From: an uncultured Clostridia bacterium | GTDB taxonomy: Bacteria; Bacillota; Clostridia; Christensenellales; UBA1242 | Assembly (NCBI GenBank): GCA_944384465.1 | Contig: CALWTK010000007.1 | Coordinates: 1 to 43,586, forward strand | Reading direction: 5' to 3' | Length of the DNA stretch: 43,586 nucleotides | Shown here: piece after piece, positions 13,471-39,065 of the stretch | Position numbering within the stretch: the stretch's first letter is position 1 | Layout of the letters: each line of letters opens with the position of its first letter | Notes under the pieces: model-generated | What the model saw: the letters and a program-made list of their open reading frames with translations, nothing else | What the model was told of the DNA's origin: nothing | Database searches by the model: none | Made by a program: the position numbers and the translations under genes

Positions 13471-13499
13471 TTGACTTAAAAATTTATATGCACTAAAAT
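13471..13499 (+). promoter_or_regulatory. Promoter of the first TasA-like gene
   Basis: TTGACT (13471-13476), 17 bp, TAAAAT (13494-13499). Transcription from here would give a leader of more than 200 nt before the ATG at 13730. Confidence 0.75.
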
Positions 13500-13503
13500 C
13501 ATA

Positions 13504-13729
13504 ATAAGTAATCGAGGTCGATGTAGATTGCTTACGTACATATTTGTACAAATAAATTTGCAAATTTGTTTGTTATTGCAAACAATCTGAGATAGTATAT
13601 GCATTACTTATTTCAGAGGATCGATTTCGTAAGTGGGTGAAACCATTTAGGGGAAATCAAGAGTCTATTGTTAGAATAGACATGGTTAGTCGAAAAACCA
13701 TTAAATTAATTTAAAAGGGGAAAAATAAG
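13504..13729 (+). promoter_or_regulatory. Structured 5' leader of the first TasA-like gene
   Basis: A long untranslated leader with several nested pairings. ATAAGTAAT (13504-13512) pairs with ATTACTTAT (13603-13611). Inside it, AGATTG (13525-13530) pairs with CAATCT (13583-13588), and the palindromes ATTTGTACAAAT (13542-13553) and AAATTTGCAAATTT (13554-13567) lie in the loop. Further on are a GTCTATT/AATAGAC hairpin (13663-13681) and ATGGTT (13682-13687), which can pair with AACCAT at either 13641-13646 or 13696-13701. The two choices exclude each other. It matches no riboswitch class that I can recognise. A ribosome binding site AAAAGGGGA precedes the ATG. Confidence 0.55.
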
Positions 13730-14449
13730 ATGACAAAAACAAAATCTAAAAAAATGACTAAATCAACCTTTGCCATCATTATAATGGCGGTGGTTATGGT
13801 CGCTATGCTCGCCTTCGGCGGCACTTATGCTTATTTTACGGCTAGTACATCTGCTAAATCAACCAGCTTTACAACAGGTAAAGTAGTATTGACAAACAGT
13901 GGTGCAAATATAACTGTAATCAGTGATAAAGTAGTTCCAGGTGATACTATTATTAACGATGTTATTAGTTACACTAATGGATCAGATGTTAATACTTATA
14001 TTGCAGTTGTTATGACTGTTAAAAAAGGAACTAATGCTGGTGACGCAGAAGAAGTTACTGATCTATCAGAAATCAGTAGCGCTATCAACTTGGGCGTTAC
14101 TACTTCTTGGCAACAATGTGAAACTAGCACTAATGTTTACATTGCAAAAGGTACAGACTTTGCAGTATCTCCAAGTGGTGATCCTATTAACTTCACAACT
14201 GGTGCTGTAACATTCAATGTTGACGAACACTATACTGATGGAACAAGTGAACTTGGTGCAGGCACTTGGGAAGGTGTATACATTGAAATCAGTTTCAAAG
14301 CATATCAAGTACAAGCTGAATATGCAAAAACAGATGCAAACACTACATTGAGTGTGTCGGCAGAAGATGCAACTAATGCAGAAAAAGTTTGGACAGCAAT
14401 AAAATATATGCTAGGTGACAATTATACTCCAGCTACTCCAGCTCCATAA
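13730..14449 (+). CDS. TasA/camelysin-like secreted protein (copy 1)
   Basis: A 239-residue secreted protein of the TasA/camelysin type (SipW-dependent surface or biofilm fibre proteins). It has a basic start with several Lys, a hydrophobic signal segment (FAIIIMAVVMVAMLAFGG) and the family hallmark GTYAYFTA just after it. KSTSFTTGKVVLT, ISDKVVPGDTIINDVISYTN and DVNTYIAVVMTV belong to the beta-sandwich core. Cleavage is expected near the TYAYFTA segment. The gene has a promoter, a structured leader, a strong ribosome binding site and a terminator. Bases 13779-13844 are identical to an inverted copy in the convergent gene at 14721-15425, although the mature parts differ greatly. No dedicated SipW peptidase gene is in the window. 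Confidence 0.85.
   Translation: MTKTKSKKMTKSTFAIIIMAVVMVAMLAFGGTYAYFTASTSAKSTSFTTGKVVLTNSGANITVISDKVVPGDTIINDVISYTNGSDVNTYIAVVMTVKKGTNAGDAEEVTDLSEISSAINLGVTTSWQQCETSTNVYIAKGTDFAVSPSGDPINFTTGAVTFNVDEHYTDGTSELGAGTWEGVYIEISFKAYQVQAEYAKTDANTTLSVSAEDATNAEKVWTAIKYMLGDNYTPATPAP
13779..13844 (+). repeat. 66-bp inverted repeat, left copy
   Basis: Exact reverse complement of 15251-15316 over all 66 bases; identity stops abruptly at both ends. It encodes the signal hydrophobic segment and GTYAYFTA in the same frame in both genes, and is more GC-rich than its surroundings. The two copies face each other and enclose about 1.4 kb containing both mature domains. Confidence 0.95.
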
Positions 14450-14451
14450 TT

Positions 14452-14478
14452 AAAAATCTCGCAACAGCGAGATTTTTT
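14452..14478 (+). terminator. Terminator of TasA-like copy 1
   Basis: AAATCTCGC/GCGAGATTT stem (14454-14462 with 14467-14475) followed by a T run. Nearly the same stem ends the convergent gene at 14682-14707. Confidence 0.85.
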
Positions 14479-14525
14479 ATGTCAAATTAGTTTGAGTTAC
14501 ACCATTCTATAATATATTTATTAAT

Positions 14526-14551
14526 AGTAAAGCAAAGTACTTTGCTTTACT
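14526..14551. repeat. 26-bp perfect palindrome
   Basis: AGTAAAGCAAAGT is followed directly by its reverse complement, and AT-rich flanks extend the pairing imperfectly on both sides. It lies about 10 bp from the midpoint between the two 66-bp repeat copies and could form a cruciform. Confidence 0.8.
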
Positions 14552-14625
14552 TTATTATAAATATATGATTGTAAAATTTGTAGCGTTATATATTTTTCTA
14601 CCAAAATAAATTTAAATTTAGATGA

Positions 14626-14672
14626 GAAAATTCTTATAATTAAGAATTTTCCCTTTTTTTTTTGGGGGGGGG
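14626..14672 (+). terminator. Hairpin with T10 tract followed by a G9 run
   Basis: GAAAATTCTT/AAGAATTTTC (14626-14635 with 14642-14651), then CC, ten T (14654-14663) and nine G (14664-14672). The hairpin and T run form a backup terminator. The G run has no evident role and is striking in such AT-rich DNA; it may be a slippage site or a sequencing artefact. Confidence 0.6.
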
Positions 14673-14681
14673 TAAAAAAGA

Positions 14682-14707
14682 AAAAATCTCGCTGTAGCGA
14701 GATTTTT
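14682..14707 (-). terminator. Terminator of TasA-like copy 2
   Basis: Stem AAAAATCTCGC with GCGAGATTTTT around a TGTA loop, just after the stop of the minus-strand gene. It shares the stem sequence of the terminator at 14452-14478. Confidence 0.85.
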
Positions 14708-14720
14708 AAAACAATTTAAA

Positions 14721-15425
14721 TTAGGCACCAGTATGTAAAGCATTCCAAGCAGCATCAACACTAGCGTAATTTGTTTCCCCGTCCCCATCTTCATCTATAG
14801 CCTGTATTGCTTCAGATGAAATGGTTATAGTAATTGTTTTTTCCATCAAAGTACCTGTTGTGGTTTCAGTACTTTTGCTGTAACCATAGAATCTAATACC
14901 TGTACATACATCAATCGGTGTATTTGCTTCAGCCGCTGTAACTTTACGTCCATATACGTTAGTTTCATCGCTTACAGCAGTCCAACCAGCAGCTTGAGTA
15001 ACATCAAGGAAATAATCTCCTTCAGTTGTACATTCTGCTGCTGATTTTTTTTGATTACCTGCACCATCGAATGTAACTGAGAATGTTACGAATACATAAG
15101 TATCAACATTTGATGCACTTGTAACTTGTACAGAACCAGTGTCAATCAAACTTGAACCAGATACAACTTTATCACTTACAAGTGTAGCCATTGTATTTGC
15201 GTTCAATTTTACTGTACCAGTAGTAACACTACCTTCTACTTCACTAGCAGTAGCCGTAAAATAAGCATAAGTGCCGCCGAAGGCGAGCATAGCGACCATA
15301 ACCACCGCCATTATAAGCGGAACAATTCTCCCTATTGCCAGATTGCACACTTTGTGTGCAATCGTTGGCCTTTTGGTCGATTGTTCCGCTCTATGAAGGA
15401 ACACCTTGAGAAGGTTTTCCTTCAT
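14721..15425 (-). CDS. TasA/camelysin-like secreted protein (copy 2) with repeat-derived N-terminus
   Basis: A 234-residue protein of the same type as copy 1: from residue 38 it has LIMAVVMVAMLAFGGTYAYF, TA, then EGSVTTGTVKLNAN and VSDKVVSGSSLIDTGSVQVT. The mature domain differs clearly from copy 1. The first 37 residues are unusual: their DNA (15317-15425) consists of three nested palindromes, so this N-terminus is derived from a MITE-like element and may not be a working signal n-region. The initiation region (GAAAAGAAGTAATG) also resembles the nearby repeat. The gene may be a poorly expressed partner of copy 1, or may start at an internal ATG. Confidence 0.7.
   Translation of the reverse strand: MKENLLKVFLHRAEQSTKRPTIAHKVCNLAIGRIVPLIMAVVMVAMLAFGGTYAYFTATASEVEGSVTTGTVKLNANTMATLVSDKVVSGSSLIDTGSVQVTSASNVDTYVFVTFSVTFDGAGNQKKSAAECTTEGDYFLDVTQAAGWTAVSDETNVYGRKVTAAEANTPIDVCTGIRFYGYSKSTETTTGTLMEKTITITISSEAIQAIDEDGDGETNYASVDAAWNALHTGA
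15251..15316 (-). repeat. 66-bp inverted repeat, right copy
   Basis: Exact reverse complement of 13779-13844, in the same reading frame of the minus-strand gene. On its outer side it directly abuts the palindromic insert that starts at 15317. Confidence 0.95.
15317..15424 (-). mobile_element. MITE-like nested palindromes inside the gene start
   Basis: GCGGAACAAT (15317-15326) and ATTGTTCCGC (15380-15389) are 10-bp terminal inverted repeats. Between them is the perfect hairpin GATTGCACAC-TTT-GTGTGCAATC (15341-15363). Next to them is TGAAGGAACACCTT-GAG-AAGGTTTTCCTTCA (15394-15424; 14-bp arms, one mismatch). No transposase is present. The arrangement fits a small non-autonomous element that has become coding sequence. 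Confidence 0.65.
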
Positions 15426-15680: not shown

Positions 15681-15750
15681 AAGGGGAGCGAAGGCGTAAA
15701 AGAGAAGTTTTTTGCTAGTCAAAAAACGATAAAAGAACGCCATTCGCTCC
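15681..15750. repeat. 70-bp direct repeat, copy 1
   Basis: It matches 15924-15993 with one mismatch (C at 15689, T at 15932). Each copy is itself an imperfect inverted repeat (GGAGCGAAGGCGT against ACGCCATTCGCTCC) with an inner TTTTTTGCTAGTCAAAAAA hairpin. It is preceded by GGGGAAGTAATGAAGGGG (15669-15686). Confidence 0.9.
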
Positions 15751-15884
15751 AAAAATCTTTTCATAATAAAATAGATAACATTATTTCATTAAGTTAAAGA
15801 ATTTCAATAGTTAAATTTATAAAACAAATAATATGGAGATTTAAATAGTAAAAGATAGATTTGCTTTAATTGCGAGATTACAAA

Positions 15885-15993
15885 GGGGAAGTAATGAAGG
15901 GGAAAGTAGTTGCCCCTTCATAAAAGGGGAGTGAAGGCGTAAAAGAGAAGTTTTTTGCTAGTCAAAAAACGATAAAAGAACGCCATTCGCTCC
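15885..15993. repeat. 70-bp direct repeat, copy 2, with shared flank
   Basis: GGGGAAGTAATGAAGGGG recurs at 15885-15902, followed by a short extra hairpin and the 70-bp unit (15924-15993). The unit ends 1 bp before the stop codon of the minus-strand gene at 15995, so it also forms that gene's 3' hairpin. Two copies 243 bp apart do not make a CRISPR array; an interspersed palindromic repeat family is more likely. Confidence 0.9.
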
Positions 15994-15994
15994 C

Positions 15995-16885
15995 CTACAC
16001 TTCTATAATTTTCAAATCCTCCGCATCTTGATACACAATATAATATCCTTCGCTCAGCGGATCTTCGCTATCGATAGGTACCCATTGATAGTATTTACCC
16101 AACTCTTCAGGGGCGGGGGTGTTGTAATTGCATTTGACAGCATAACAGATATATCTGATGCTATCATCTTGGTATATAGCGCCAAGGGAATATTGTTCGG
16201 TATTTTCATTTATTTTGACAAACTTGCCATGCTCAATCAGTCTATTCAACTCTTCGTCTGCTGGATAATTTTCGAAGATATAATTAAATTGTGGCAATAT
16301 GGATTTTATGATGCTAGGACTCTCTTTGATTTCTCGTGGTTCTTCTGTGCTATCAGGTGAGTCAGTCGGAGCGGGAGTGGTCGCGTCTTCTTCAGTGGAT
16401 TTTGTTGAAATAAATTCTTTGCTGGGCTCGTTGTAAAAATATTCTTTATATTTACATCTAGCACACTTGTCACATTCTTCATCTTGACTGTCCTTTATAT
16501 TTAAGTCCGCTTCGTCTGAAGTGTTTATGGTTGATATAGGTTCACTAAACACAGATGTGTCATCAAAATAATATCCGGCATATGTGCCGCCTGCTAGCAA
16601 GACATTATTATTTTTATCTACATCGATTAGAGCGGTGTAAAAATCTTTGTTCATATCAAAATCGCCCACAAAAGAACTCTCATAAAATCCGCCCCTATCA
16701 ATTAAATTGGCGGAAAAGACTTCTTCGTTGTGGTATATGCCGAGTTTGCAGTTTCTATTTAGTTTTGGGAAATTGTATAGACGCAGTTTGCATTTCAACA
16801 AATCGTCCTCTTGATAGATGGTTAAAATTCCGCGTCCATTAGAGTTTTCGTCTTGTGAAGATATGATTATAGTTTTGCTTTTCAT
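15995..16885 (-). CDS. Hypothetical two-part protein with a Cys-rich linker
   Basis: A 296-residue protein without signal peptide. The N-terminal part (1-95) is beta-rich, including GRGILTIYQEDDLLKCKLRL. A polar linker contains CDKCARCKYKEYF (possible metal site) and an acidic, Pro/Thr-rich stretch. The C-terminal part (about 195-296) contains LPQFNYIFENYPADEELNRL, KFVKINENTEQYSLGAIYQD, YICYAVKCNYNTPAPEELGK and a YYIVYQDA end. This two-part layout is one I associate with uncharacterised clostridial proteins, but I cannot name the family surely. It starts 6 bp after an extended -10 (TATAAT at 16892-16897, minus strand) without a ribosome binding site. Confidence 0.75.
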   Translation of the reverse strand: MKSKTIIISSQDENSNGRGILTIYQEDDLLKCKLRLYNFPKLNRNCKLGIYHNEEVFSANLIDRGGFYESSFVGDFDMNKDFYTALIDVDKNNNVLLAGGTYAGYYFDDTSVFSEPISTINTSDEADLNIKDSQDEECDKCARCKYKEYFYNEPSKEFISTKSTEEDATTPAPTDSPDSTEEPREIKESPSIIKSILPQFNYIFENYPADEELNRLIEHGKFVKINENTEQYSLGAIYQDDSIRYICYAVKCNYNTPAPEELGKYYQWVPIDSEDPLSEGYYIVYQDAEDLKIIEV

Positions 16886-38354: not shown

Positions 38355-39065
38355 ATGGGGAAAAAGAAAGTATCAGGGCAAACTGTTGCTATTATTGTAC
38401 TTGCAATTTTATTGTTGTTGACTGCCTGTTTTGGCGGTGTATTTGCCTATTATAGTACTGCCTCTAATAGAGTGCATGGTAGTGTCACTATGGCGAACCT
38501 TAGGATTGAATTTCAGATAGGAGATAATCCGGTAGAGAGCGGTCAAAGTAACGTTTTTGTTTCGGACGGTATATATGTTCCTGGACAATATTTAGAAAAC
38601 TCACCGTTGACAGTAATTAATGAATCAAATACTCCAATATATTTAGCTGTAGTGTATAAAGTGAATGTCTTTGAAGGTGATATAGATATAACGGATGCAT
38701 TGACACAAGGTAATCCACTTACAATAGATGTTGGAGCGGGGACAGATGGCAGTATATGGACAGACTATCTATTCACAGGCACTAATTCACAGGATGAGGA
38801 AGTGTCCTTTAGATGTCTCATCACAACGACTCCTCAACCTTCTAGCCAGAGGGATATAACAGTTATAGCAGAAAATGCATTGAAATTACCATCTAGTTGG
38901 GGCGATGAATTGCAAAGCAAAAAGATAAGTTTTTCGTTCCAAGCGTATGCAATTGGTTCTAATTCACTTGCAGATCTTATCGATGCTTCAGATTCAGACA
39001 CAGTAAAGTGCCAAAAAATTATGGGTGCAATTTTTGAGGCATTTGATTATAATATATCTATATAA
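38355..39065 (+). CDS. TasA/camelysin-like secreted protein (copy 3)
   Basis: A 236-residue protein of the same type as the two at 13.7-15.4 kb but with no close DNA similarity. It has a basic start (MGKKKVSG), a hydrophobic signal segment (TVAIIVLAILLLLTACFGG), the hallmark VFAYYSTAS, then VHGSVTMANLRIEFQIG, YVPGQYLENSPLTVINESNT and PIYLAVVYKVNV as beta strands. It is probably exported and assembled outside the cell. It has its own consensus promoter, ribosome binding site and terminator and sits between a Spo0A-C-like gene and spmA-spmB. Confidence 0.8.
   Translation: MGKKKVSGQTVAIIVLAILLLLTACFGGVFAYYSTASNRVHGSVTMANLRIEFQIGDNPVESGQSNVFVSDGIYVPGQYLENSPLTVINESNTPIYLAVVYKVNVFEGDIDITDALTQGNPLTIDVGAGTDGSIWTDYLFTGTNSQDEEVSFRCLITTTPQPSSQRDITVIAENALKLPSSWGDELQSKKISFSFQAYAIGSNSLADLIDASDSDTVKCQKIMGAIFEAFDYNISI

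Follow-up and report, generated by a model that had tools for sequence, protein, structure and literature searches.

A candidate DNA-inversion switch between two SipW-dependent TasA/camelysin-like proteins in gut Clostridia

The window analysed here is a 43,586-nt stretch of DNA from an uncultured Clostridia bacterium (genome G000), in which two convergent genes for TasA/camelysin-like proteins share one exact inverted repeat over their signal segments. This arrangement raises the question of whether the DNA between the two arms inverts, so that one expression site serves either of two mature domains, or whether the likeness of the two genes has some other cause. We favor a reversible DNA-inversion switch in which one expression site is paired with a silent cassette, to which we assign a probability of roughly 0.85. 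What could be observed is how the locus is built, that eight species have it, that its arms evolve in concert, that the silent copy is under purifying selection and that cassette types occur on either side.

Anatomy of the repeat and its two genes

The two arms are 66 nt long, 100% complementary and spaced 1406 nt apart (Table 1), and a whole-genome scan found the repeat in just two copies in the 1.07-Mb genome; the next-longest exact inverted repeat within 11–19 kb measures 26 nt and is formed by the gene terminators (one arm masked). The left gene (+) and the right open reading frame (ORF; 14721–15425, −) converge, and the reading frame through the repeat is the same in both, IMAVVMVAMLAFGGTYAYFTA. 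An earlier, sequence-only reading of this DNA had claimed exactly such a 66-bp repeat, shared in frame by convergent genes, and is borne out on both counts. It had also described the flanking sequences as unrelated, which is correct beyond the outer repeat edge; on the inner side, however, similarity falls off gradually.

Table 1. Features of the putative switch in the window
Feature	Position	Strand	Remarks
Promoter of the predicted expression site, TTGACT-17-TAAAAT	13471..13499	+	TTGACT and -10 aligned in most sister leaders
24-nt near-perfect dyad in leader, CAAATAAATTTGCAAATTTGTTTG	13549..13572	+	Conserved in sister species whether or not they have the repeat
Ribosome binding site AAGGGG	13715..13720	+	Precedes ATG 13730
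Left gene, predicted to be expressed, SipW-dependent, TasA/camelysin-like	13730..14449	+	239 aa
Left arm of inverted repeat	13779..13844	+	Signal segment and first mature residues
Segment predicted to invert	13845..15250	.	1406 nt, 1538 including arms; predicted from the arms
Terminator hairpin of left gene	14452..14477	+	
Terminator hairpin of right gene	14682..14707	-	
Putatively silent right cassette (arm and mature domain, own start site absent)	14721..15316	-	Open; dN/dS compared with sister G011
Right arm of inverted repeat	15251..15316	-	Outer edge TTATAATGG, common to all eight species
Hairpin abutting the repeat edge, with an 11-bp outer stem (AGCGGAACAAT/ATTGTTCCGCT) and an inner one	15316..15390	-	z -8.8, p 0.003
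Terminator-like hairpins between upstream gene (15995-16885, -) and right cassette	15734..15998	-	

Both proteins had been called TasA/camelysin-like. The left one exceeds the cut-offs for the SipW-dependent signal (TIGR04088) and for Peptidase_M73 (camelysin, PF12389), whereas the right one exceeds that of TIGR04088 and stays just under that of PF12389 (20.0 against 22.5), so that the description holds for the signal of both and for the M73 family of the left protein only. When the left protein was modelled, with modest confidence, and compared with the PDB, the solved B. subtilis TasA structures 5of1 and 5of2 came out on top, with a modest Z of 5.7 and an rmsd of 4.3 over 132–140 residues. 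A fold search with a low-confidence model of the right type gave no clear match, and a search of solved structures by sequence gave no significant one. A SipW-like signal peptidase (TIGR02228) is over the cut-off in 19 of the 34 genus genomes, with none in G000 at E 0.001. The proteins would make up surface fibres. At 38355–39065 the window encodes a third, distant member of this type, which matches the left protein at 31% identity over its start; further copies are found on other contigs of G000.

The two sides differ in what precedes the coding sequence. In nearly all species compared, AAGGGG or AAAGGGG stands ahead of the left gene. The leader dyad, which occurs once in the window, is possibly an operator or a hairpin, and an Rfam search with the left-gene leader returned no match. 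On the right side, 12 promoter-like matches were found against 11.1 expected by chance, and a good ribosome binding site for the right gene is absent from the window and from all eight species that carry the repeat. In each of these species the right copy starts inside the signal segment, without the lysine-rich N-terminus, while the left gene has both. The sequence-only reading had seen a good promoter and ribosome binding site on the left only and a repeat-derived 5′ end on the right, and our comparison agrees with it on the promoter and the ribosome binding site.

The same data bear on the simplest alternative, that these are two ordinary genes with their own promoters whose common signal segment reflects a recent duplication. 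G000 does have an in-frame ATG (15425) upstream of the right arm, with promoter-like hexamers ahead of it; however, the N-terminal extension so created (15317–15425) lies within a hairpin, is not conserved and runs into stops in most other species. With promoter-like matches at chance level, every right copy devoid of a ribosome binding site, and eight separate recent duplications sharing one edge being implausible, we consider this account very improbable.

The hairpin abutting the outer edge of the right arm reaches p 0.003 in G000, G011 and G020 and 0.007 in G040, about 0.06–0.09 in G018 and G045, and is absent in G004 and G006. Such edge hairpins have little sequence conservation between species, and those in the right flanks of loci L019, L021, L051, L022 and L052 differ in sequence; some have a common inner GATTGC...GCAATC stem and further partial matches elsewhere in the genome. 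The edge hairpin may serve as an insulator of the silent cassette or as a break marker, both of which are guesses. Insulation is the likely role of the terminator-like hairpins farther upstream. An intergenic hairpin element with two 70-nt copies, 99% identical, lies beside the silent cassette at 15681–15993, and similar repeat arrays adjoin the silent cassette in L020. The gene at 15995–16885, on the strand of the silent cassette, is conserved downstream of the switch in the relatives compared, and its product had no Pfam or NCBIfam match.

The locus across the genus

The window's genome belongs to Candidatus Onthoplasma, which, judged by matching contigs, includes the species faecigallinarum and faecipullorum and consists of gut Clostridia with reduced genomes of about 1 Mb (PMC12306168). 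Our comparison set comprises 34 genus genomes. In relatives the order is mnmA, a conserved gene, the pair, and then a conserved gene whose product starts MKSKTII. Eight species have the convergent pair at this locus, each with its own exact inverted repeat, 54–79 bp long (66 bp in G000, G018 and G045, 64 in G004, 79 in G006, 54 in G011, 60 in G020 and 67 in G040), and about ten have the left gene alone, with no right-cassette remnants detectable. Presence of the repeat is scattered on the mnmA tree, with at least four changes, which implies that it was lost or gained repeatedly. The repeat motif was not found in viral contigs. The relatives identified are all metagenome assemblies, which might invite the suspicion of an assembly artefact; yet the same layout recurs in eight species whose genomes come from independent projects (the BRZ, SIG and CHK MAG sets among them) with species-specific repeat sequences, which leaves this explanation a negligible weight.

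The arms evolve in concert. Within a core of 54 nt, the two arms show 0 differences in each of the eight species, against 1–10 differences (mean 6.3) between species, and the nearest arm of every arm is its own partner within the species. Since arms that are identical within species diverge between species, recombination between them must be continual, as the sequence-only reading had supposed when it spoke of recent or ongoing exchange. The outer edge falls on the same base, plus or minus one, in all eight species, at TATAATGG, which is invariant in every right arm, and the bases just outside it vary. The inner end is variable and lies 17–41 nt beyond where the GG codons begin.

Taken by itself, the identity of the arms is also what gene conversion without inversion would produce, with the left gene always expressed and the right copy a donor or relic, and in G000 the gene terminators are alike too, providing a second stretch of homology. 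A right copy that is never expressed should decay, however, and conversion should erase one of the two cassettes. Neither is seen. The right cassette is open in all eight species, and between the right copies of G000 and G011 dN is 0.113 and dS 0.478 (dN/dS about 0.24), so that, judged from its substitutions, this cassette is under purifying selection; with such a ratio and open frames, it does not look as a copy that is never expressed would be expected to look. The two domains of each pair are also clearly different in all eight species, with identities of, for example, 30% in G000, 36% in G018 and 55% in G006. Because both cassettes remain distinct and intact, gene conversion alone fails, and we regard it as an unlikely explanation.

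Gene conversion is further opposed by the presence of cassette types on both sides. In a tree of the mature domains the right copies form no clade, and well-supported branches force at least four changes of side. A single clade of right copies is rejected (p-AU 9.8e-7), also after removal of the within-species pairs G018 and G006 (p 5.1e-4), although the test becomes non-significant when either G004 or G020 is dropped (p 0.27 and 0.22, respectively). The right domain of G004 groups with the left domain of G011, and the left domain of G020 with the right copies of G000, G011 and G045. With moderate confidence, then, cassettes appear to have swapped sides, a reading that draws mainly on G004 and G020 together. 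A search for the inverted order in related genomes, as the sequence-only reading had suggested, found cassette types on both sides, but no pair of assemblies with both cassettes cleanly swapped. In single-gene relatives this same expression site is occupied by a cassette of one type or another, and these species may have lost the silent cassette after one orientation became fixed. Outright replacement of cassettes also occurs, as the left domains of G000 and G011 are 25% identical.

Inversion and the enzyme behind it

We envision the left side, with its promoter, leader, ribosome binding site and lysine-rich signal-peptide start, as the sole expression site. A crossover between the 66-bp arms would flip the 1.4 kb between them and join the other mature domain to the constant start, so that at any one time a cell would make a single surface or matrix protein, and a single crossover would exchange the cassettes without loss. 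Inversion as the route, and a high frequency for it, are our reading of the locus; the eight-species layout, the arm identity, the selection, the side swaps and a branch in the G045 assembly, described below, all accord with the one expression site and one alternative cassette first proposed from the sequence.

A possible trace of both orientations is preserved in G045, a SPAdes-style MAG. Its contig C32 stops precisely where the right arm has its outer edge; contig C6 opens with the same 77 nt and continues past this overlap into the right flank. Most contig overlaps in this assembly are 77 nt, i.e. the k-mer size. Of the shared 77-mer, 66 bp are the arm and the other 11 bases occur in the right cassette only; given these cassette-specific bases, a branch would not be expected from the repeat by itself. 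The reads of G045 therefore probably held a second continuation that starts exactly at the repeat edge. Inversion would be the simplest cause of this branch, which belongs to a sister genome rather than to the window's own, and a second strain whose right flank differs could in principle produce it too. Most other assemblies run through both arms, from which it follows that one orientation may dominate.

As to the enzyme, we lean somewhat toward general homologous recombination across the arm over a dedicated recombinase. General recombination explains the identity across the whole arm, and in Mycoplasma agalactiae a vpma promoter was inverted by recombination at a 38-bp homologous stretch without Xer1 (PMC5634654), so that arms of 54–79 bp can suffice. 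The hairpin beside the right arm would perhaps stimulate the process.

The fixed outer edge nevertheless suggests something more specific than general recombination. Site-specific inversion by a recombinase recognising the outer-edge core (TATAATGG and beyond) differs from our preferred reading in the enzyme only. It would account for an edge fixed in all eight species and a motif invariant in the right arms, and an Xer-like 346-aa tyrosine recombinase, encoded beside lexA in nearly all genomes, is present in all eight repeat species, where it is the only site-specific recombinase found throughout (G006 and G040 yielded no other PF00589 protein). Against this, species without the repeat carry the Xer-like protein too, and no recombinase adjoins the switch, none being found among the window ORFs. 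The core also lacks a clear dyad, the identity far exceeds a plausible 30-bp core and co-varies within species, and the edge could descend from one original truncated duplication. We hold site-specific inversion to be possible, though the less likely route. A more particular version, in which the housekeeping Xer-like recombinase crosses over at the conserved outer-edge core without a dedicated invertase, and the hairpin caps the silent cassette as insulator or landmark, seems to us more doubtful still.

In G000 the Xer-like gene (C2:119548-120084, L061) adjoins lexA and serS. Other candidates were discarded: a serine recombinase was ruled out as the common agent, as it was not found in G004; IS110/Piv elements occur in none of the 34 genomes; and a dif-like site sought in the repeat by eye misfits in spacing, with a second arm that is not conserved.

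Relation to known surface-protein switches

If true, a DNA-inversion switch at this locus would add SipW-dependent TasA/camelysin-type proteins, here of gut Clostridia with small genomes, to the surface proteins known to vary by inversion. Its retention in at least eight species despite genome shrinkage to about 1 Mb would point to strong selection for alternating surface proteins. A literature search combining TasA, phase variation and inversion found no inversion switch of a TasA/SipW-type gene, a weak sign of novelty.

A close parallel in logic is the S-layer switch of Lactobacillus acidophilus slpA/slpB, which operates by inversion of a chromosomal segment according to the account of Boot et al. 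1996 given in PMC6015585. As outlined there, inversion exchanges a silent, promoterless surface-protein gene with the one at the single expression site, as we propose for Candidatus Onthoplasma; in contrast, it concerns an S-layer protein and a 6-kb segment, where the present locus has TasA/camelysin-like proteins, 1.5 kb and a signal-peptide segment as the repeat. In mycoplasma vsa loci, a silent gene is supplied by inversion with a promoter and the DNA that encodes the N-terminus (PMC4534519), and such a gain of promoter and N-terminal DNA is common to M. pulmonis vsa and M. agalactiae vpma (PMC4534519, PMC5634654). Those are, however, multi-gene lipoprotein families, and vpma uses the dedicated Xer1, whereas the Onthoplasma locus has two cassettes and no linked recombinase. 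The sap S-layer proteins of Campylobacter fetus form a large sapA family with a common 5′ coding region. They are unrelated to the TasA/camelysin type. Their variation likewise proceeds by DNA inversion, reported also without RecA (Ray et al. 2000, as recounted in PMC5634654). To the Bacillus matrix proteins TasA and CalY (camelysin), finally, the Onthoplasma proteins are linked by the SipW-type signal segment and by a predicted left-protein fold that ranks TasA first. Where the sequence-only reading had spoken of a new kind of switch, slpA/slpB and vsa/vpma already embody this logic, and the novelty lies only in the cargo and the taxon.
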